From Acidobacteriota bacterium (GTDB lineage: Bacteria > Acidobacteriota > Terriglobia > Bryobacterales > Bryobacteraceae), in NCBI GenBank assembly GCA_017307505.1, contig JAFKEE010000034.1, forward strand, positions 186,001 through 250,000: a DNA stretch of 64,000 nt. Direction: 5' to 3'. Of the stretch, positions 30,099 through 36,746 are shown one piece after another. Numbering within the stretch: the first letter of the stretch is position 1; every line of letters starts with the position of its first letter. The notes beneath the pieces are model-generated. The model saw only the letters and a list, made by a program, of their open reading frames with translations. It ran no database searches and was not told the DNA's origin. The position numbers and the translations under genes are program-made.

Positions 30099-30155
30099 CG
30101 ACTTACCTGGATTTTCTAGTCATGATTGCCTCAGAAAGGAATTCTGAGGAATTCG

Positions 30156-30866
30156 ATGACTACCACGACGACTTTAGCTGACATTGCCGCGACTTCCCTG
30201 GTGGCGGTGAGGACTCTGGAACGCTACGGCCTGGACTACTGCTGTGGCGGCAAACAGGCGATTGGGGACGCCTGCTCGGCGAAGGGCCTGGATGCCAGCG
30301 CCGTGATGCAGGAGATCGAGCAGTCGCTGAACACAGGCGGCGGCGACAGGGACTGGCAGAATGCGCCCCTGGGTGAACTGGCTCGACACATCATCGCCAC
30401 GCACCACGAGTATTTGCGGCAGGAATTGCCGGCCGTGGGCGCCCGCATGGCGAAGGTATTGCGCGTTCATGGCGGCCGCGATCCGCAGACGCTGACCCGC
30501 ATGGCGACGGTCTACGACGGCCTGCGCAGCGAACTGGAAGCGCACATCGCCAAGGAAGAGCAGATCCTTTTCCCGTTCATCGCGAAGTACGCCCAGGCGG
30601 AAGCCCAGGGCCAGCCCATGCCTCCGGTTCCCTTCGGATCCATCGCCAATCCCATCGCCATGATGGAGCGCGAGCACGAAGGCGCCGGTGACGCGCTGGT
30701 GGAGCTCCGCACGCTGACCAACAACTACGAATTGCCCCCTTACGCGTGCACTACGGTACGCATGCTGTTCGACGGACTGCAGGCGCTGGAAGCAGACCTC
30801 CACGTGCACATTCACCTCGAAAACAACATCCTGTTTCCGCGTGCCATTGCACTGGAGCGCCGGTAG
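30156..30866 (+). CDS. scdA: Iron-sulfur cluster repair di-iron protein (Ric/ScdA/YtfE family)
   Basis: 236 residues from ATG 30156, preceded by the ribosome-binding sequence GAGGAATTCG. The short N-terminal ScdA_N domain has the hallmark LERYGLDYCCGG (C29-C30); the rest is a hemerythrin-like helical bundle with His/Glu ligands (IIATHHEYLRQELP, EAHIAKEEQILFPF, MEREHEGAGD, ADLHVHIHLENNILFPR). These cytoplasmic proteins repair Fe-S clusters damaged by nitric oxide or peroxide. A CRP/FNR-type palindrome in the leader matches one in front of the nitrate operon 0.8 kb downstream. Confidence 0.94.
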   Translation: MTTTTTLADIAATSLVAVRTLERYGLDYCCGGKQAIGDACSAKGLDASAVMQEIEQSLNTGGGDRDWQNAPLGELARHIIATHHEYLRQELPAVGARMAKVLRVHGGRDPQTLTRMATVYDGLRSELEAHIAKEEQILFPFIAKYAQAEAQGQPMPPVPFGSIANPIAMMEREHEGAGDALVELRTLTNNYELPPYACTTVRMLFDGLQALEADLHVHIHLENNILFPRAIALERR

Positions 30867-30982: not shown

Positions 30983-33235
30983 GTGAGCGAATCTGAGAGC
31001 AGTTTGCAGAGGCTCCAGTTGTGGCTGGGCACGATATCGTTCTTCCTGTGCTTCGCCGTGTGGGGCATCGTCAGTTCGTTCGCCCCGGCTTACCGGCAGC
31101 AGTTTCACCTGACGGCCACACAGACGTCGCTGATCGTCGCGATACCGGTGCTGTTGGGCTCGCTGGGCCGCATCCCCCTGGGGATGCTGACAGACCGGTT
31201 TGGCGGCCGGCTGGTGTTCACGCTCCTGTTCCTCGCTTCGGCCGGAGCGGGGGCGGTGCTGGCCAACGTAACCACCTACAACGGACTGCTGGCCGCGGGC
31301 TTCTTCGTCGGCGTGGCCGGATCGTCCTTCTCGGTGGGCGTCGGCTTCGTCTCCAAGTGGTTTGCGGCGGAACGGCAGGGCACGGCGCTGGGGCTCTATG
31401 GGATGGGCAACATGGGCCAGTCGGCGGTGGTCTTTCTGGGCCCCGTCCTGGCTGCCATGATCGGCCGCTCGAACTTCATCTACGGCATCTCAGCCCTGTT
31501 GGTGGTTTGGTCGGTCGTCTTTTGGACCCTGGCGCGGAATGCACCCGCTTTCGTGCCGAACAAAAAGGGACTGGGGCCGATGATCCAGATCCTTACGAAG
31601 GAGCCGCTGGCCTGGGTCCTGTCGCTGTTCTACTTCCTCACCTTCGGCGGCTTTGTGGCGTTCTCCATCTATCTGCCATCGCTGCTGAAGGATGACTTCG
31701 GCCTGGCTCCGGCGGACGCCGGCTTCCGGGCTGCGGGCTTCGTGGTCTTGGCGACGCTGCTGCGGCCCGTAGGCGGAGCCCTGGCCGACCGGTTGGGCGG
31801 CGCGCGCGTGCTGTGGGGCGTCTTCCTGGGCATCGCGCCGTTCGCCTTGCTGCTGGCGTGGCCCTCGATGGTGCCGTTCACTGTGGGCGCGCTGGGTTGT
31901 GCGGCGCTGCTCGGGTTGGGCAACGGAGCGGTCTTCAAGCTGGTGCCGCAATACTTCCCCGGCAATACGGCCACGGTTACCGGCCTGGTGGGCGCCATGG
32001 GCGGTCTGGGCGGCTTCTTTCCTCCGCTACTGCTGGGCCGGTTTCGCGACTCGCTCGGCGTCGTCTGGCCGGGCTTCGTCCTGCTGGCCGCGACATCCCT
32101 GGCGCTGTGGTTCCTGAACCTGCGGGTCTTCATCCCCCGCCAGCAGGCGTTGGAACTGAATCTCCAGCCGGACTTCGTGCGCCGGGCCGATCAACTGCGT
32201 GCCGGAGCCTGGGCCGTCGCGGTGACCGCGCTGCTCGTCGCCTCCATCGTGATCGGCTCCAGGAACCTGCAGAACTTCGATGCGGCGCTGGTGGTCTATA
32301 CGTTCGCGGTCATCTTCGCCACGTTCGGCGTGACCTTCCATTACGCGGTCTGGCTGCAGAAACCGCCGACGAAACGCTACTGGCAGCGGAGCCTGGAGTT
32401 GGCTCGGTCGCGCGGTTGGCTGAAGACCATCGCTCTCGTCACGCAGACCGCGGGCACCCACCTGATCGCGCAGAAGTTCATCGCCAAACGCAGCCGGACC
32501 CGCTGGTGGATGCACCAGTTGCTGTTCTGGGGCTGCCTGTCCGCGGCCGCCATCACGTTTCCGCTGGTCTTCGGCTGGGTCAATTTCACGTCCCATCCCG
32601 ACGATCAGATGACCTACATCACCTGGCTGTTCGGCTTCCCGGTGGGGACCATGCAGGCGCGGTCCGTGATTGCCTGGGTCCTCTTTCACGGGCTCGACTT
32701 CTCGGCCGTGCTGGTACTGGGCGGAATCGCTCTATCCCTGGGCCGCCGAATGAAGGACGAAGGCGCGCTGGCACTGGAAACGCTGGCGGCGGACTTCCTG
32801 CCCCTGGCGCTGCTCTTCGCAATCTCCGTGACCGGCCTGGCGCTGACAGTGTCCACGCTCTGGTTCCGCGGAGCTTTCTATGGATTCCTGGCCGTGATCC
32901 ACGCCATCACCGTGATCGGCGCGCTGCTGTTCCTGCCGTTTGGGAAGTTCTTCCACATCTTCCAGCGGCCGGCACAGTTGGGCGTGAAGGTCTACCAGCA
33001 GGCCGGCGGCGAGGATGAGGGCTCGCACTGCCCCCGCTGCGGCCAGCGGTTCGCGTCCAAAATGCATATCGAAGACCTGAAAATTGTGCTGCCGCAACTG
33101 GGGTTCGACTATACGTCGAACGACGGCACTTCGCACTGGCAGGCGCTCTGCCCGCCGTGCAAACGCAAGACCCTGGCGACCGTGCAGATGAGAGTGAAGG
33201 AGAACGCGCATGGCCAAGCCTCCGCAATCCGTTGA
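30983..33235 (+). CDS. NarK-type nitrate/nitrite transporter fused to a NarI-like cytochrome b and a zinc ribbon
   Basis: 750 residues, about 300 longer than a plain NarK. Residues ~10-395 are a 12-span MFS transporter with NarK hallmarks: the helix-2 arginine in GSLGRIPLGMLTDRFGGR, nitrate signature one GLYGMGNMGQSAVV (137-150), the helix-8 arginine in LLRPVGGALADRLGG and signature two GLGNGAVFKLVPQYFP (311-326). Residues ~408-665 are a second membrane domain with five spans and membrane-proximal His residues (H453, H493, H511, H569, H640, H658); VIHAITV and LPFGKFFHIFQRP resemble NarI/DsrM-type haem b subunits. The tail has C683-P-R-C686 and C723-P-P-C726. The GTG start at 30983 has a strong ribosome-binding site. 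It leads the operon and overlaps the reductase gene by 26 nt. Confidence 0.88.
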   Translation: MSESESSLQRLQLWLGTISFFLCFAVWGIVSSFAPAYRQQFHLTATQTSLIVAIPVLLGSLGRIPLGMLTDRFGGRLVFTLLFLASAGAGAVLANVTTYNGLLAAGFFVGVAGSSFSVGVGFVSKWFAAERQGTALGLYGMGNMGQSAVVFLGPVLAAMIGRSNFIYGISALLVVWSVVFWTLARNAPAFVPNKKGLGPMIQILTKEPLAWVLSLFYFLTFGGFVAFSIYLPSLLKDDFGLAPADAGFRAAGFVVLATLLRPVGGALADRLGGARVLWGVFLGIAPFALLLAWPSMVPFTVGALGCAALLGLGNGAVFKLVPQYFPGNTATVTGLVGAMGGLGGFFPPLLLGRFRDSLGVVWPGFVLLAATSLALWFLNLRVFIPRQQALELNLQPDFVRRADQLRAGAWAVAVTALLVASIVIGSRNLQNFDAALVVYTFAVIFATFGVTFHYAVWLQKPPTKRYWQRSLELARSRGWLKTIALVTQTAGTHLIAQKFIAKRSRTRWWMHQLLFWGCLSAAAITFPLVFGWVNFTSHPDDQMTYITWLFGFPVGTMQARSVIAWVLFHGLDFSAVLVLGGIALSLGRRMKDEGALALETLAADFLPLALLFAISVTGLALTVSTLWFRGAFYGFLAVIHAITVIGALLFLPFGKFFHIFQRPAQLGVKVYQQAGGEDEGSHCPRCGQRFASKMHIEDLKIVLPQLGFDYTSNDGTSHWQALCPPCKRKTLATVQMRVKENAHGQASAIR

Positions 33236-35402
33236 GGCGCTGACCGAGCAGTACGGACCGCACCTGAAGTACGTTCCGCCCGGTGGTTGGCAGGGAGAAT
33301 CGCTGAAGGGGCCCGAGAAGCTGGTCAAGACGCATTGCTGTTTCTGCGGGCAGCAGTGCGGCATTCAGTTGAAAGTGCGCGACAACCAGGTGACCGGGTT
33401 TGAGCCCTGGGAAGAGTTCCCGTTCAACCGCGGCATGCTGTGTCCCAAAGGCGTACGGCGCTACATGCAGAGCGAGCACCCGGACAGGCTGCTGGCGCCA
33501 CTGATCCGCACCGACAGCGGATTCCGTCAGGCCGGCTGGGAAGAGGCGATGAGCCTGACGGCGCGGCGGCTGCAGGAGATTCAGGCGAAGTACGGCAAAG
33601 ACTCGGTAGCCGTCTACGGTGGAGCCTCGCTCATTACCGAGAAGTCCTACCTGCTGGGGAAATTCGCGCGCGTTGCCCTGGGCACGCGGCATATCGATTA
33701 CAACGGCCGCCTGTGCATGGTGTCCGCCGGCACTGCCTACAAGCTGGCGCTGGGCGTCGACCGCAATCCGAATCCCTGGGAAGACATTCCGAAGGCCCAG
33801 GTCGTGCTGGTCGCCGGCGCGAATGTCGGCGAATGCTTCCCCATCACCACCGACTACCTGTGGCGCATGCGCGACAACGGCGGCCGCCTGATCGTCGCCG
33901 ACCCGCGCATGACGCCCATCACGCGCAACGCCGACCTCTATCTGCCCGTACGGCCCGGCACCGACGTCGCGCTGTTCTCAGCCATGCTCCATGTGATCGT
34001 GCGCGATGGCCTGGCGGATCTGGAGTTCATTGGGAACCACACCAACGGGTTCGACCAGGTGGCCGAGTATGTGAAGGCCTGGGACCCGCGCCGCGCCGCC
34101 GATGTCACCGGAGTCCGTCCGGAAGATATCGAGAAGGCGGCCCAGTGGTTCGGTACGGCGGAGCGCGCCATGGCCCTGCACGCCCGCGGTATCGAGCATC
34201 ACTCGCACGGCGTGGAGAACTGCCTGGCGCTGGTCAACCTCTGTCTGGCCACCGGCAACATTGGCCGGGAGGGCGCCGGTCCGAACATGATCACGGGGCA
34301 GGGCAATGGCCAGGGCGGCCGCGAGCACGGCCAGAAGTGCGACCAGTTGCCGGGCCAGCGGCACATTGCCGATCCGGTCGCGCGCGAGCACGTCGCGAAG
34401 GTCTGGGGCATCACGCCCGACGAGATCCCACAGGCCGGCTACAGCGCGGTGGAGATCATGGAAGCGATCCATCGCGGCGAGATCAAGGCCCTGTTTTCCA
34501 TGTGCTTCAACCCGCTGGTGTCGTTGCCGGACAGCGAGTACACACGGGCGGCGCTGGAGAAACTCGAGTTCTTCTGCGTGGTCGATTTCTTCCTCTCCGA
34601 GACCGCCCATCACGCCGATGTCGTGCTGGCGGGGAGCCTGCAGGAGGAGGAAGAGGGCGTCGTGGGCAGCGGCGAAGGCCGCGTCATCAAGATCAACAAA
34701 GCGGTAGACCCGCCCGGACAGGCGCGCGGCGACAGCGCGATTGTCGTGGATCTGGCCCGCCGCCTGGGTAAGGGGCAGTACTTCCCCTTTGAGTCGACCC
34801 GGGAGATCTTCGATGAGCTGCGCGAGGCCTCGCGCGGCGGCCACGCCGACTACTACGGCATCACCTACGAGCGCATCGAGAAGGAGATGGGCATCTTCTG
34901 GCCCTGCCCCACGCTCGACCATCCAGGGACGCCGCGCTTCTTCGAGGGTGGCAAGTTCGCTCATCCTGACGGACGCGCCCGGTTCGTGGTGGCGGAAGTC
35001 CGCCCCAGCGGCGACCCGGTGGCGGAGGACTTCCCGATTCATCTGACATCCGGCCGCGTCGTCAGCCAGTACCTCTCCGGAGCGCAGACGCGCCGCATCG
35101 GAGCCCTGGTCGACCAATACCCGAACCCCAAGGTGGAGATCCACCCCAAGCTCGCGGAACGGTACGGCATCAAGACCGACGACTGGGTGACGGTGACCAC
35201 TCGCCGCACCTCCATCACCGTGCAGGCAATGGTCGTTCGCACCATCCGGCCTGATACGGTCTTCATCCCCTACCACTGGCCCGGGCGCAAGAGCGCCAAC
35301 CGGCTGACCCACCGCACGCTGGACCCGCGCAGCAAGATCCCCGAGTTCAAGGTCTCGGCCTGCCGCATCGAAAAGGCCGCCGGTCCGCAGGGAGGCCAGT
35401 GA
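33210..35402 (+). CDS. Molybdopterin oxidoreductase, assimilatory nitrate reductase-like catalytic subunit
   Basis: 730 residues. N-terminal 4Fe-4S site C43-x2-C46-x3-C50 ... C78 (GMLCPKG), then the three molybdopterin-binding domains and a C-terminal dinucleotide-binding beta-barrel ([36 protein letters not shown]). The residue at the expected molybdenum position is C169 in NGRLCMVSA, matching NasC/NarB-type nitrate reductases rather than Ser/Asp or selenocysteine enzymes. No Tat signal is present, so a cytoplasmic location is expected. The start is ATG 33210 with AAGGAG upstream. Formate dehydrogenase-like activity is the main alternative, but the fused NarK transporter argues for nitrate or nitrite. 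Confidence 0.88.
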
Positions 35403-35983
35403 GCATGTTCGGCTACGAGTTCTACGTCGACCCGTCGCGCTGCATCGGCTGCCAGTCCTGCGTCAACGCCTGCGCGGAATGCGGCACCCACCGCGGTGTT
35501 TCGATGATCCACCTGGACTTCATCGACAGGCCCAACACGATCGCCACGGCGCCGATGGTCTGCATGCACTGCGAGGATCCCACCTGCGCCCAGGTGTGCC
35601 CGGCGGATGCGATCAAGAAAGGCGAGGACGGCGTCGTGCGCACGGCGTTGAAGCCGCGCTGCATCGGCTGTTCCAACTGCGTGCTGGCCTGCCCGTTCGG
35701 CGTGCCGAATGTGATCACTGAGATGGAGCTGATGATGAAGTGCGACATGTGCTACGACCGCACCAGCATCGGCAAGCGGCCCATGTGCGCCACCGTCTGC
35801 CCCAGCCAGGCTCTGATGTACGTGCCCGCGGAGCAGGCCGCGCAGAAGCGGCGCGAGCGCGCCTCCAACGAGTTCCACTTCGGCGGACAGGTGGTGCGCA
35901 CGAAGGTTCATTACATGCTGCCGGCGTCGGAGCCGGTGATGAGTGTGGATGTGGCGGATGCCATCTGGGAGGGAGAGGAATGA
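35399..35983 (+). CDS. Four-cluster 4Fe-4S electron-transfer protein (NarH/FdhB-like)
   Basis: 194 residues with sixteen or more cysteines arranged for four 4Fe-4S clusters: C15-x2-C18-x2-C21-x3-C25, C55-x2-C58-x4-C63-x3-C67, C88-x2-C91-x2-C94-x3-C98, and C115-x2-C118 ... C130-x3-C134. This is the usual layout of electron-relay subunits of molybdopterin oxidoreductases. It would pass electrons between the membrane partners and the catalytic subunit. GTG at 35399 overlaps the reductase stop; ATG at 35405 is an equally good start and sits better relative to GGGAGG. The Rieske gene starts at its stop (ATGA). Confidence 0.93.
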
Positions 35984-36498
35984 GCCAGCAGAAGGAGTGC
36001 CCCAAGCAGCGCCTGTGGAGCGAAGAGTTCTCGGTACGTTCGGGCGAGTCGAGTTTTGTCGAGCGGCGGCAGTTCACGAAGTTCCTTACCCTGACGAGCT
36101 TCGCCATGTTCGCCGGCCAGCTGTGGCTGGTGGCGAAGAATCTCTTCACCCGGCGCAAGTCCGCCTTTCCGGAGGTCGTCGTGAAGGACGCCGATGGACT
36201 GGCCGTGGGCAGCGCCAAAGTCTTCCAGTATCCGACTCCGCAGGACAACTGCCTGCTGGTGCGTGTCGACGAGCGGAAGTTCGTGGCCTACAGCCAGAAG
36301 TGCACCCACCTGTCGTGCGCGGTACTCTACTCGGCGAAGCACAACAGGCTGGAATGCCCGTGCCACGAAGGATACTTCTCCATCGAGGACGGGCGCGTGC
36401 TGCAGGGCCCGCCGCCCAGGCCTCTGCCCAGGGTGGAACTGGAACGGCGCGGCAGCGAACTGGTGGCGATCGGAATGGCCACCGGAGAGGAGTCGTAG
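35980..36498 (+). CDS. Membrane-anchored Rieske 2Fe-2S protein
   Basis: 172 residues. The N-terminus has RRQF followed by one membrane span (~36-53, [17 protein letters not shown]), resembling a Tat-type anchor. The soluble domain has C108-T-H110-L-S-C113 and C126-P-C128-H129, the cluster ligands plus the disulfide pair of high-potential bc1/b6f Rieske proteins. In this operon it probably connects the quinone pool or the cytochrome b domain of the NarK fusion to the Fe-S/molybdenum subunits. The membrane side of the Rieske domain is unclear because positive residues flank both ends of the span. Start overlaps the previous stop and uses GGGAGAGGA. Confidence 0.92.
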
Positions 36499-36500
36499 CC

Positions 36501-36746
36501 ATGACCGACGGCGAATCGCCCCTGCGGCGCAGGAGTCTCAAAGGGATCAACGGCGCGCTGGCTCTCATCGTCGTGCTCCTGGTCGTGCAGATCTGGATGC
36601 TGATGGCCTCCGTCGAAACTTACCTGGCCGGCCACCACGAGGCCGCCGTGCCGGGCGCTGTGTTGTCCGGCTTACTCTTTGCGGGCTGCGCGCTGCTGCT
36701 GCGCTTCGTCAACCGGTTGGACCGCCAGACGCGCGACCAGTCCTAG
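36501..36746 (+). CDS. Small two-span membrane protein (DUF6755-like) of the nitrate operon
   Basis: 81 residues with two hydrophobic segments, about 16-38 (GALALIVVLLVVQIWMLM) and 50-70 (AVPGAVLSGLLFAGCALLL), a basic N-terminus (RRRSLKGING) and a charged tail. The frame begins 2 nt after the Rieske stop, so it is the fifth gene of the operon. It resembles the small membrane proteins found beside Rieske/cytochrome modules; the DUF6755 assignment is from memory and unverified. A plausible role is assembly or stability of the membrane complex. Confidence 0.75.
   Translation: MTDGESPLRRRSLKGINGALALIVVLLVVQIWMLMASVETYLAGHHEAAVPGAVLSGLLFAGCALLLRFVNRLDRQTRDQS

Follow-up and report, generated by a model that had tools for sequence, protein, structure and literature searches.

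The locus studied here raises the question of why a nitrate importer and a cytochrome-b-like membrane domain should be encoded as a single protein. Within the window, which is the whole 64,000-nucleotide stretch of the Acidobacteriota contig JAFKEE010000034.1 that was analyzed, an uninterrupted GTG-start open reading frame on the plus strand (30983-33235) encodes a chain of 750 residues. An earlier note had read this chain as a complete NarK-type domain followed by a five-span cytochrome of the NarI/DsrM type, and had suggested that nitrate import is thereby coupled to quinol-linked electron supply. We found three parts in the order NarK-type domain, six-helix cytochrome-b-like domain, and CxxC-x36-CPxC tail. 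The AlphaFold2 model of the whole chain, made from 58 aligned sequences chosen from 80 loci (the window protein, 45 fused, and 12 stand-alone relatives), had a pLDDT of 87.9 and a pTM of 0.82 and placed 12 membrane helices up to residue 391. Past the linker, it showed helices at residues 396-428, 434-459, 505-529, 562-591, 596-627, and 633-650, an amphipathic helix at 463-495, a short beta stretch at 533-558, and, last, a mixed tail. The second domain is therefore predicted to start near residue 396 and to have six membrane helices rather than five.

The NarK-type domain (residues 1-392, 12 helices; 30983..32158, plus strand) was assigned by family models, AlphaFold2, Foldseek, and a site alignment. 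Residues 12-344 matched the NarK model TIGR00886 at 3.3e-67 with 227.1 bits, below the curated cut-off of 311.7, and the single-domain assimilatory NarK of the same genome likewise stayed under that cut-off (261.4 bits). Residues 18-346 matched MFS_1 at 1.5e-45, and among the MFS models only general ones were passed. Given these matches and the intact frame, the earlier claim of one chain with a complete NarK-type domain was borne out. In a Foldseek search with the whole model, the top matches were NarK/NarU structures (best 4u4w, E 7.6e-11). The substrate site of Escherichia coli NarK is described as F49, R89, F147, N175, Y263, F267, and R305 (PMC4432589), and all seven residues aligned with the window protein, as F24, R63, F116, N143, Y217, F221, and R261, respectively; the transport arginines pointed out before are present, their correct positions being R63 and R261. 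Six of the seven were invariant over 30 fused rows, the exception being N143, with N in 26 rows and T in the other 4. In eight separate NarKs, the first position was F in six and Y in two, the fourth was N in six and T in two, and the rest were invariant. The domain thus resembles E. coli NarK and NarU of the NNP family in its 12-helix fold and all seven nitrate-site residues, but differs in being joined to a second membrane domain and in lying under the NarK subfamily cut-off.

A chain of this kind could also arise when two genes are joined by an error of assembly or annotation, and trouble of that sort does occur at single loci, with a stop inside the cytochrome half in L034 and an assembly gap merging two frames in L021. 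The relatives refute this explanation, to which we give next to no credence. A contig scan of genomes gave 303 encoding stretches among 381 candidates, from which the best 80 loci were kept, and the shares given below describe those 80 only. Both halves lay in one frame in 66 of the 80, so that the search for the same architecture across genomes showed the fusion to recur; the MFS half was complete in 60, L034 and L021 included, whereas the six partial fusions were either cut by contig ends (four) or had shorter frames (L023 and L029). The other 14 loci have the cytochrome as a gene of its own within the operon, and as far as the contigs reach it is succeeded by the same genes. The fusion was conserved across several phyla, as judged by the assignments of the isolates and metagenome-assembled genomes (MAGs) that carry it. 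In the window's own phylum, a match to the cytochrome at E ≤ 0.001 was present in 69 of 396 sampled genomes, and in 58 it was nearly full-length. Nine of the 58 near-full-length matches lay in frames of at least 750 aa, and the four that were checked (the window, L103, L104, and L108) were fusions. The window's own genome (9.39 Mb, 75 contigs) had a single match to the cytochrome domain at E ≤ 0.001. We conclude that the transporter-cytochrome fusion is real, conserved, and functionally telling.

As to the origin of the fusions, L103, L104, and L108 fell among the stand-alone types in the cytochrome trees, and a single clade of fused cytochrome halves was rejected with an AU p value of 2.65e-5 (25 versus 20 rows), a value weakened by the fact that the test was performed with the quick tree already known. 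In the MFS trees, all 30 fused rows sampled stood apart from the eight separate NarKs with a support of 100/99, and the junction aligned without gaps in both fused groups. The two halves of L103, L104, and L108 therefore appear, from these trees, to have different histories, either because a single original fusion later had its cytochrome half replaced by one of the stand-alone type or because one NarK lineage underwent fusion twice. Separately, a MAG titled Acidimicrobiia (L014) carries a fusion near the acidobacterial ones (69% identity in the cytochrome half), which reflects either transfer or misbinning.

The cytochrome-b-like domain (residues ~396-673; 32168..33001, plus strand) contains the FFHIFQRP ending and the histidines at the positions pointed out before, including the conserved H511, H569, H640, and H658. 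Residues 430-664 matched QmoC at 3.3e-7 and residues 576-664 matched TcuB at 6e-6, and the match to DsrM was weak (0.059); with the QmoC model NF038018, the domain reached 30.8 bits and did not pass the cut-off of 300. In an NCBIfam comparison with a 19-member alignment (the window, 14 stand-alone, and 4 fused sequences), QmoC and one TcuB model were matched by all 19 members and the other TcuB model by 17, the best value being 3.7e-8. Scores for the NarI family PF02665 were sub-threshold, at 15.9 and 14.9 bits versus a cut-off of 22.9 (E 0.01), and Nitrate_red_gam was matched by 6 of the 19 members at E up to 0.1 (best 7.7e-5). No family cut-off was cleared among the QmoC, TcuB, NarI/PF02665, and DsrM models compared. 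Judged by these profiles, the domain is a distant relative of the QmoC/TcuB/NarI cytochromes b that lies nearer to QmoC/TcuB than to NarI; of the earlier NarI/DsrM label, the kinship with NarI holds at a distance and that with DsrM is weak. A domain-only model (59 sequences) had a pLDDT of 89.6, and Foldseek against the PDB found no credible match for it (best E 0.06, rmsd ~19), nor did a profile search of the PDB with the 19-member alignment find any for this half at E up to 1.

The heme ligands of NarI are H56 and H66 on one helix and H187 and H205 on the last helix. Alignment of the window domain with E. coli NarI by hhalign was weak (probability 3.4%, P 0.013) and laid H640/H658 on H187/H205, both pairs being spaced by 18. 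The NarI layout was only half matched: the last-helix pair fits, and the other two histidines sit on two different helices. In a conservation set of 65 fused sequences (window included) and 14 stand-alone ones, with L021 and L034 left out, H511, H640, and H658 were invariant in 79/79, and H569 was retained in 64 of 65 fused and all 14 stand-alone sequences; the concern that homologues might lack conserved histidines was thus answered by three invariant residues and a fourth kept in 78 of 79. H453 marks the fused form, being His in all 65 fused and Arg in all 14 stand-alone sequences, and might provide a further ligand or contact. Because MFS proteins have their C terminus inside, the helix order would place H511/H658 at the inner side and H569/H640 at the outer side of the membrane. 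The charge of loop 458-505 (11 K+R versus 1 D+E) fits an inner loop, and that of loop 531-560 (1 K+R, 2 D+E) agrees with the outer side; loop 588-600, with three K+R and three D+E, speaks for neither side. We infer that this half binds heme b, with H569/H640 as the outer and H511/H658 as the inner pair. It shares with the QmoC/TcuB/NarI cytochromes the sequence similarity given above and, with NarI, the spacing of the last-helix His pair, but it differs in being a six-helix domain behind a transporter with its own C-terminal metal-type domain.

Four genes follow the fusion on the plus strand, encoding a NasC-like Mo-bisMGD catalytic subunit (730 aa; 33210..35402) with the Mo-Cys motif NGRLCMVS, a DmsB/HycB-type polyferredoxin (194 aa; 35399..35983), a Rieske [2Fe-2S] protein (172 aa; 35980..36498), and a small DUF6755 membrane protein (81 aa; 36501..36746). 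As called, the fusion and catalytic genes overlap by 26 bases and the next two junctions by 4 and 4 bases, with DUF6755 following after a 2-base gap. Among the best 80 loci, the catalytic gene came next in 79; genes for the Fe-S and Rieske proteins followed in 68, the remaining contigs ending before them. The polyferredoxin is 31% identical to HycB, and the catalytic subunit belongs to the FdhF family.

This family membership bears on the substrate, which, instead of nitrate, could be formate or some different oxyanion that the NarK domain transports. In PDB scores, the catalytic subunit was indeed nearer to formate dehydrogenases than to nitrate reductases (best 7qv7, 476 bits), and it reached 599 bits with the FDH-alpha model; however, the NasC model NF047855 scored higher, with 800.9 bits, the best among the models listed, though under its cut-off of 1100. 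A Met after the Mo-Cys is of the nitrate-reductase type and a His there is of the formate dehydrogenase type. NGRLCMVS, which has the Met, was found in 76 of 80 catalytic subunits (the window and 79 relatives; four were unmatched), whereas three aligned formate dehydrogenases have His after the Cys/Sec. The surroundings, with NarK or SLAC1, RIC, and NnrS, also argue against another substrate, which we consider very improbable. The catalytic subunit is thus supported, from motif and model scores, as a nitrate-reductase-type Mo enzyme that is NasC-like and not NarG-like. With one search pattern, a Tat-like motif ahead of the Fe-S site was found in none of the 80 catalytic subunits.

The Rieske protein passed PF00355 (44.6 bits; cut-off, 20.3) and has one apparent membrane anchor, a Tat-like twin arginine, and a disulphide-type cluster motif; the motif and the twin arginine were present in 69/69 Rieske proteins (the window and 68 relatives). 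Since the twin arginine precedes the anchor in the Rieske sequences inspected, the cluster would be placed outside, and the protein is probably periplasmic. DUF6755 recurs as the operon's last gene.

The C-terminal domain of the fusion (33002..33235, plus strand) holds the two CxxC pairs reported before, which make up a separate conserved tail: the four Cys of C683xxC686-x36-C723PxC726 were invariant in 79/79 sequences. A profile search of the PDB returned HycF of formate hydrogenlyase as the only distinct match at E up to 1 (E 0.05). By hhalign, the tail aligned with E. coli HycF at E 7e-5 over 50 columns that included both Cys pairs, and hmmsearch against the HycF tail gave 18.0 bits, compared with 3.4 for the best of 1000 shuffles (500 with the Cys places kept and 500 with the Cys and Pro places kept). 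The tail thus shares with the HycF C-terminal domain both the Cys quartet and similarity beyond it, the spacing being x36 in the window and x34 in HycF. In the formate hydrogenlyase structure, the CxxC-x34-CPxC quartet holds a metal, tentatively iron, near the FdhF interface, and the C-terminal extension of HycF interacts with HycB (PMC9474812). Because an FdhF-family and a HycB-like protein are encoded in the same operon, the HycF-like tail probably serves, by analogy, to dock the reductase with its Mo and Fe-S subunits, a link that the earlier note did not draw. The window system resembles the input module of E. coli formate hydrogenlyase in its FdhF-family Mo enzyme, HycB-like polyferredoxin, and CxxC-x34/36-CPxC tail. 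Unlike there, where the tail is on a complex-I-type ferredoxin, it is carried here by a cytochrome-b-like domain, and the Mo subunit has a nitrate-reductase-type motif.

The complex might be assimilatory: its nitrite would go into biosynthesis, quinol would simply be a handy electron source, and the fusion would do no more than ensure stoichiometry. NasC is the closest catalytic model, and sulphite/nitrite-reductase-type genes, a family that includes sulphite reductases, occurred in 20 of 25 genomes. Against this, the window's own genome has a separate assimilatory operon elsewhere with siroheme methyltransferase, polyferredoxin, NasA-like, NirB, and single NarK genes, and family models found no nitrite reductase among the genes of the window operon. 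Instead, that operon lies beside a RIC/YtfE di-iron Fe-S repair gene (30126..30866, plus strand), a functional neighbor 116 bp upstream of the fusion. Two RIC genes of this genome were over the cut-off, one beside the fusion operon (C15) and one ~14 kb from narG (C49), where a full NarG is encoded, and none was at the assimilatory operon (C51). Near the best 80 loci, we found RIC cluster genes in 16, NnrS in 17, Crp/Fnr in 12, and Rrf2 in 7, all of which are lower bounds because many contigs end early; the NnrS, Crp, and Rrf2 clusters were each named from one representative (that of NnrS by Pfam). This setting, together with the separate Nas operon, favors a respiratory, NO-producing context. 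Thus, judging from gene content, the complex is probably respiratory rather than assimilatory, and an assimilatory role is unlikely. In the assimilatory operon, the polyferredoxin (L084:2484-3965) has 493 aa, and its matches to family models cover only residues ~43-202.

No FNR box with at most one mismatch was found upstream of 60 loci (0.32 expected), and none upstream of the window fusion, RIC, or cupin genes. NirK gave only weak matches in the window's own genome (39.1 and 36.2 bits versus a cut-off of 296.3); among 25 genomes, 10 had a NarG and 3 a NirK over the respective cut-off. Because the window's genome encodes a complete NarG and an assimilatory Nas system besides, this would be its third such enzyme, which counts against the reading proposed below.

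The loci with a stand-alone cytochrome were informative about the nitrate route. They numbered 24, i.e., the 14 above and 10 further non-duplicate ones, L105 and L109 having been dropped as duplicates of L077 and L072. A NarK gene was nearby in eight (in L075 on the other strand), a SLAC1 anion channel lay beside the operon in ten (L070, L073, L076, L077, L080, L081, L095, L101, L102, and L107), and a partial SLAC1 was found at the contig end of L079. NarK and SLAC1 occurred together in none of the 24, and neither transporter was found in five (L074, L078, L097, L098, and L100); two of these loci (L078 and L100) are short. Eighteen genomes of the stand-alone type contain 13 SLAC1 genes, and 10 of these are located at this operon. 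These counts indicate that an anion route accompanies the reductase in most of these loci, by way of a fused NarK, a separate NarK, or SLAC1. The coupling of import to electron supply proposed by the earlier note thus gained support from the split operon versions, from the fusion in several phyla, and from the nitrate-reductase-type Mo enzyme with its Fe-S partner.

It is nevertheless conceivable that the fusion is a tether only, serving co-expression and membrane assembly without nitrate channelling. Separate versions evidently suffice in other lineages, and the NarK1-NarK2 linker of Paracoccus denitrificans is described as most likely a mere tether (PMC5217062); that the fusion is retained in several phyla, and that three fusions carry a stand-alone-type cytochrome half, speak for more than tethering. 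We give the tether not quite an even chance, and it overlaps our main reading, which needs no channelling.

In our main reading, which we regard as fairly probable, the 750-aa protein would serve a quinol-dependent nitrate reductase of the cytoplasm as its membrane subunit and at the same time contain the nitrate importer. Its NarK domain would import nitrate and probably export nitrite. The six-helix domain would oxidize quinol near the outer face and pass electrons over two b hemes, from the outer (H569/H640) to the inner (H511/H658). The HycF-like tail would hold the DmsB/HycB-type Fe-S and NasC-like Mo subunits against the membrane, so that nitrate would be reduced beside the mouth of its importer, and the Rieske protein could act as an accessory electron carrier or as the partner of a second quinol site. 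A bolder version is a long shot in our judgment: one chain would import the oxidant, oxidize quinol, and clamp the reductase, nitrate would be channelled without cytoplasmic mixing, and the periplasmic Rieske protein would divide the electrons of quinol in the manner of a Q-cycle, so that the whole would be a nitrate reductase of a novel, proton-pumping class.

Compared with known systems, the proposed complex is like NarGHI in having Mo, Fe-S, and quinol-side cytochrome subunits. NarK associates with NarGHI as well: it was recovered in the E. coli NarGHI interactome, as was YtfE/RIC in an hcp strain (PMC6805990). The window system is unlike NarGHI in its NasC-like catalyst, covalent importer, and added Rieske and DUF6755 proteins, and no NarJ is among the five genes of its operon. 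The Haloferax mediterranei nar operon likewise encodes a Rieske protein (NarB) and a cytochrome b (NarC) with its nitrate reductase, for which a Q-cycle is proposed; there, however, the catalytic site is of the NarG type and outside the membrane, and the available part of the report mentions no NarK fusion (PMC2483277). Paracoccus NarK1-NarK2 is an instance of NarK fused to another membrane domain, but the partner there is a second NarK (PMC5217062). In a literature search by title and abstract start, with most subscription journals outside its reach, none of the papers listed described the fusion, the operon, or DUF6755. The operon is widespread and, as a type of nitrate reductase operon, apparently undescribed.

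In the studies consulted, the proximity of importer and reductase in nitrate respiration came from pull-downs of separate proteins, namely the NarGHI interactome (PMC6805990) and the Pseudomonas aeruginosa denitrification complex, which contains NarK2 (PMC5658584), whereas here it appears to be fixed in one chain. The operon provides a functional clue for DUF6755, and the stand-alone loci give a clue to SLAC1 channels as possible bacterial nitrate routes. Where genomes are scored by narG, napA, or nasA alone, nitrate reduction in carriers of this operon may be misassigned.
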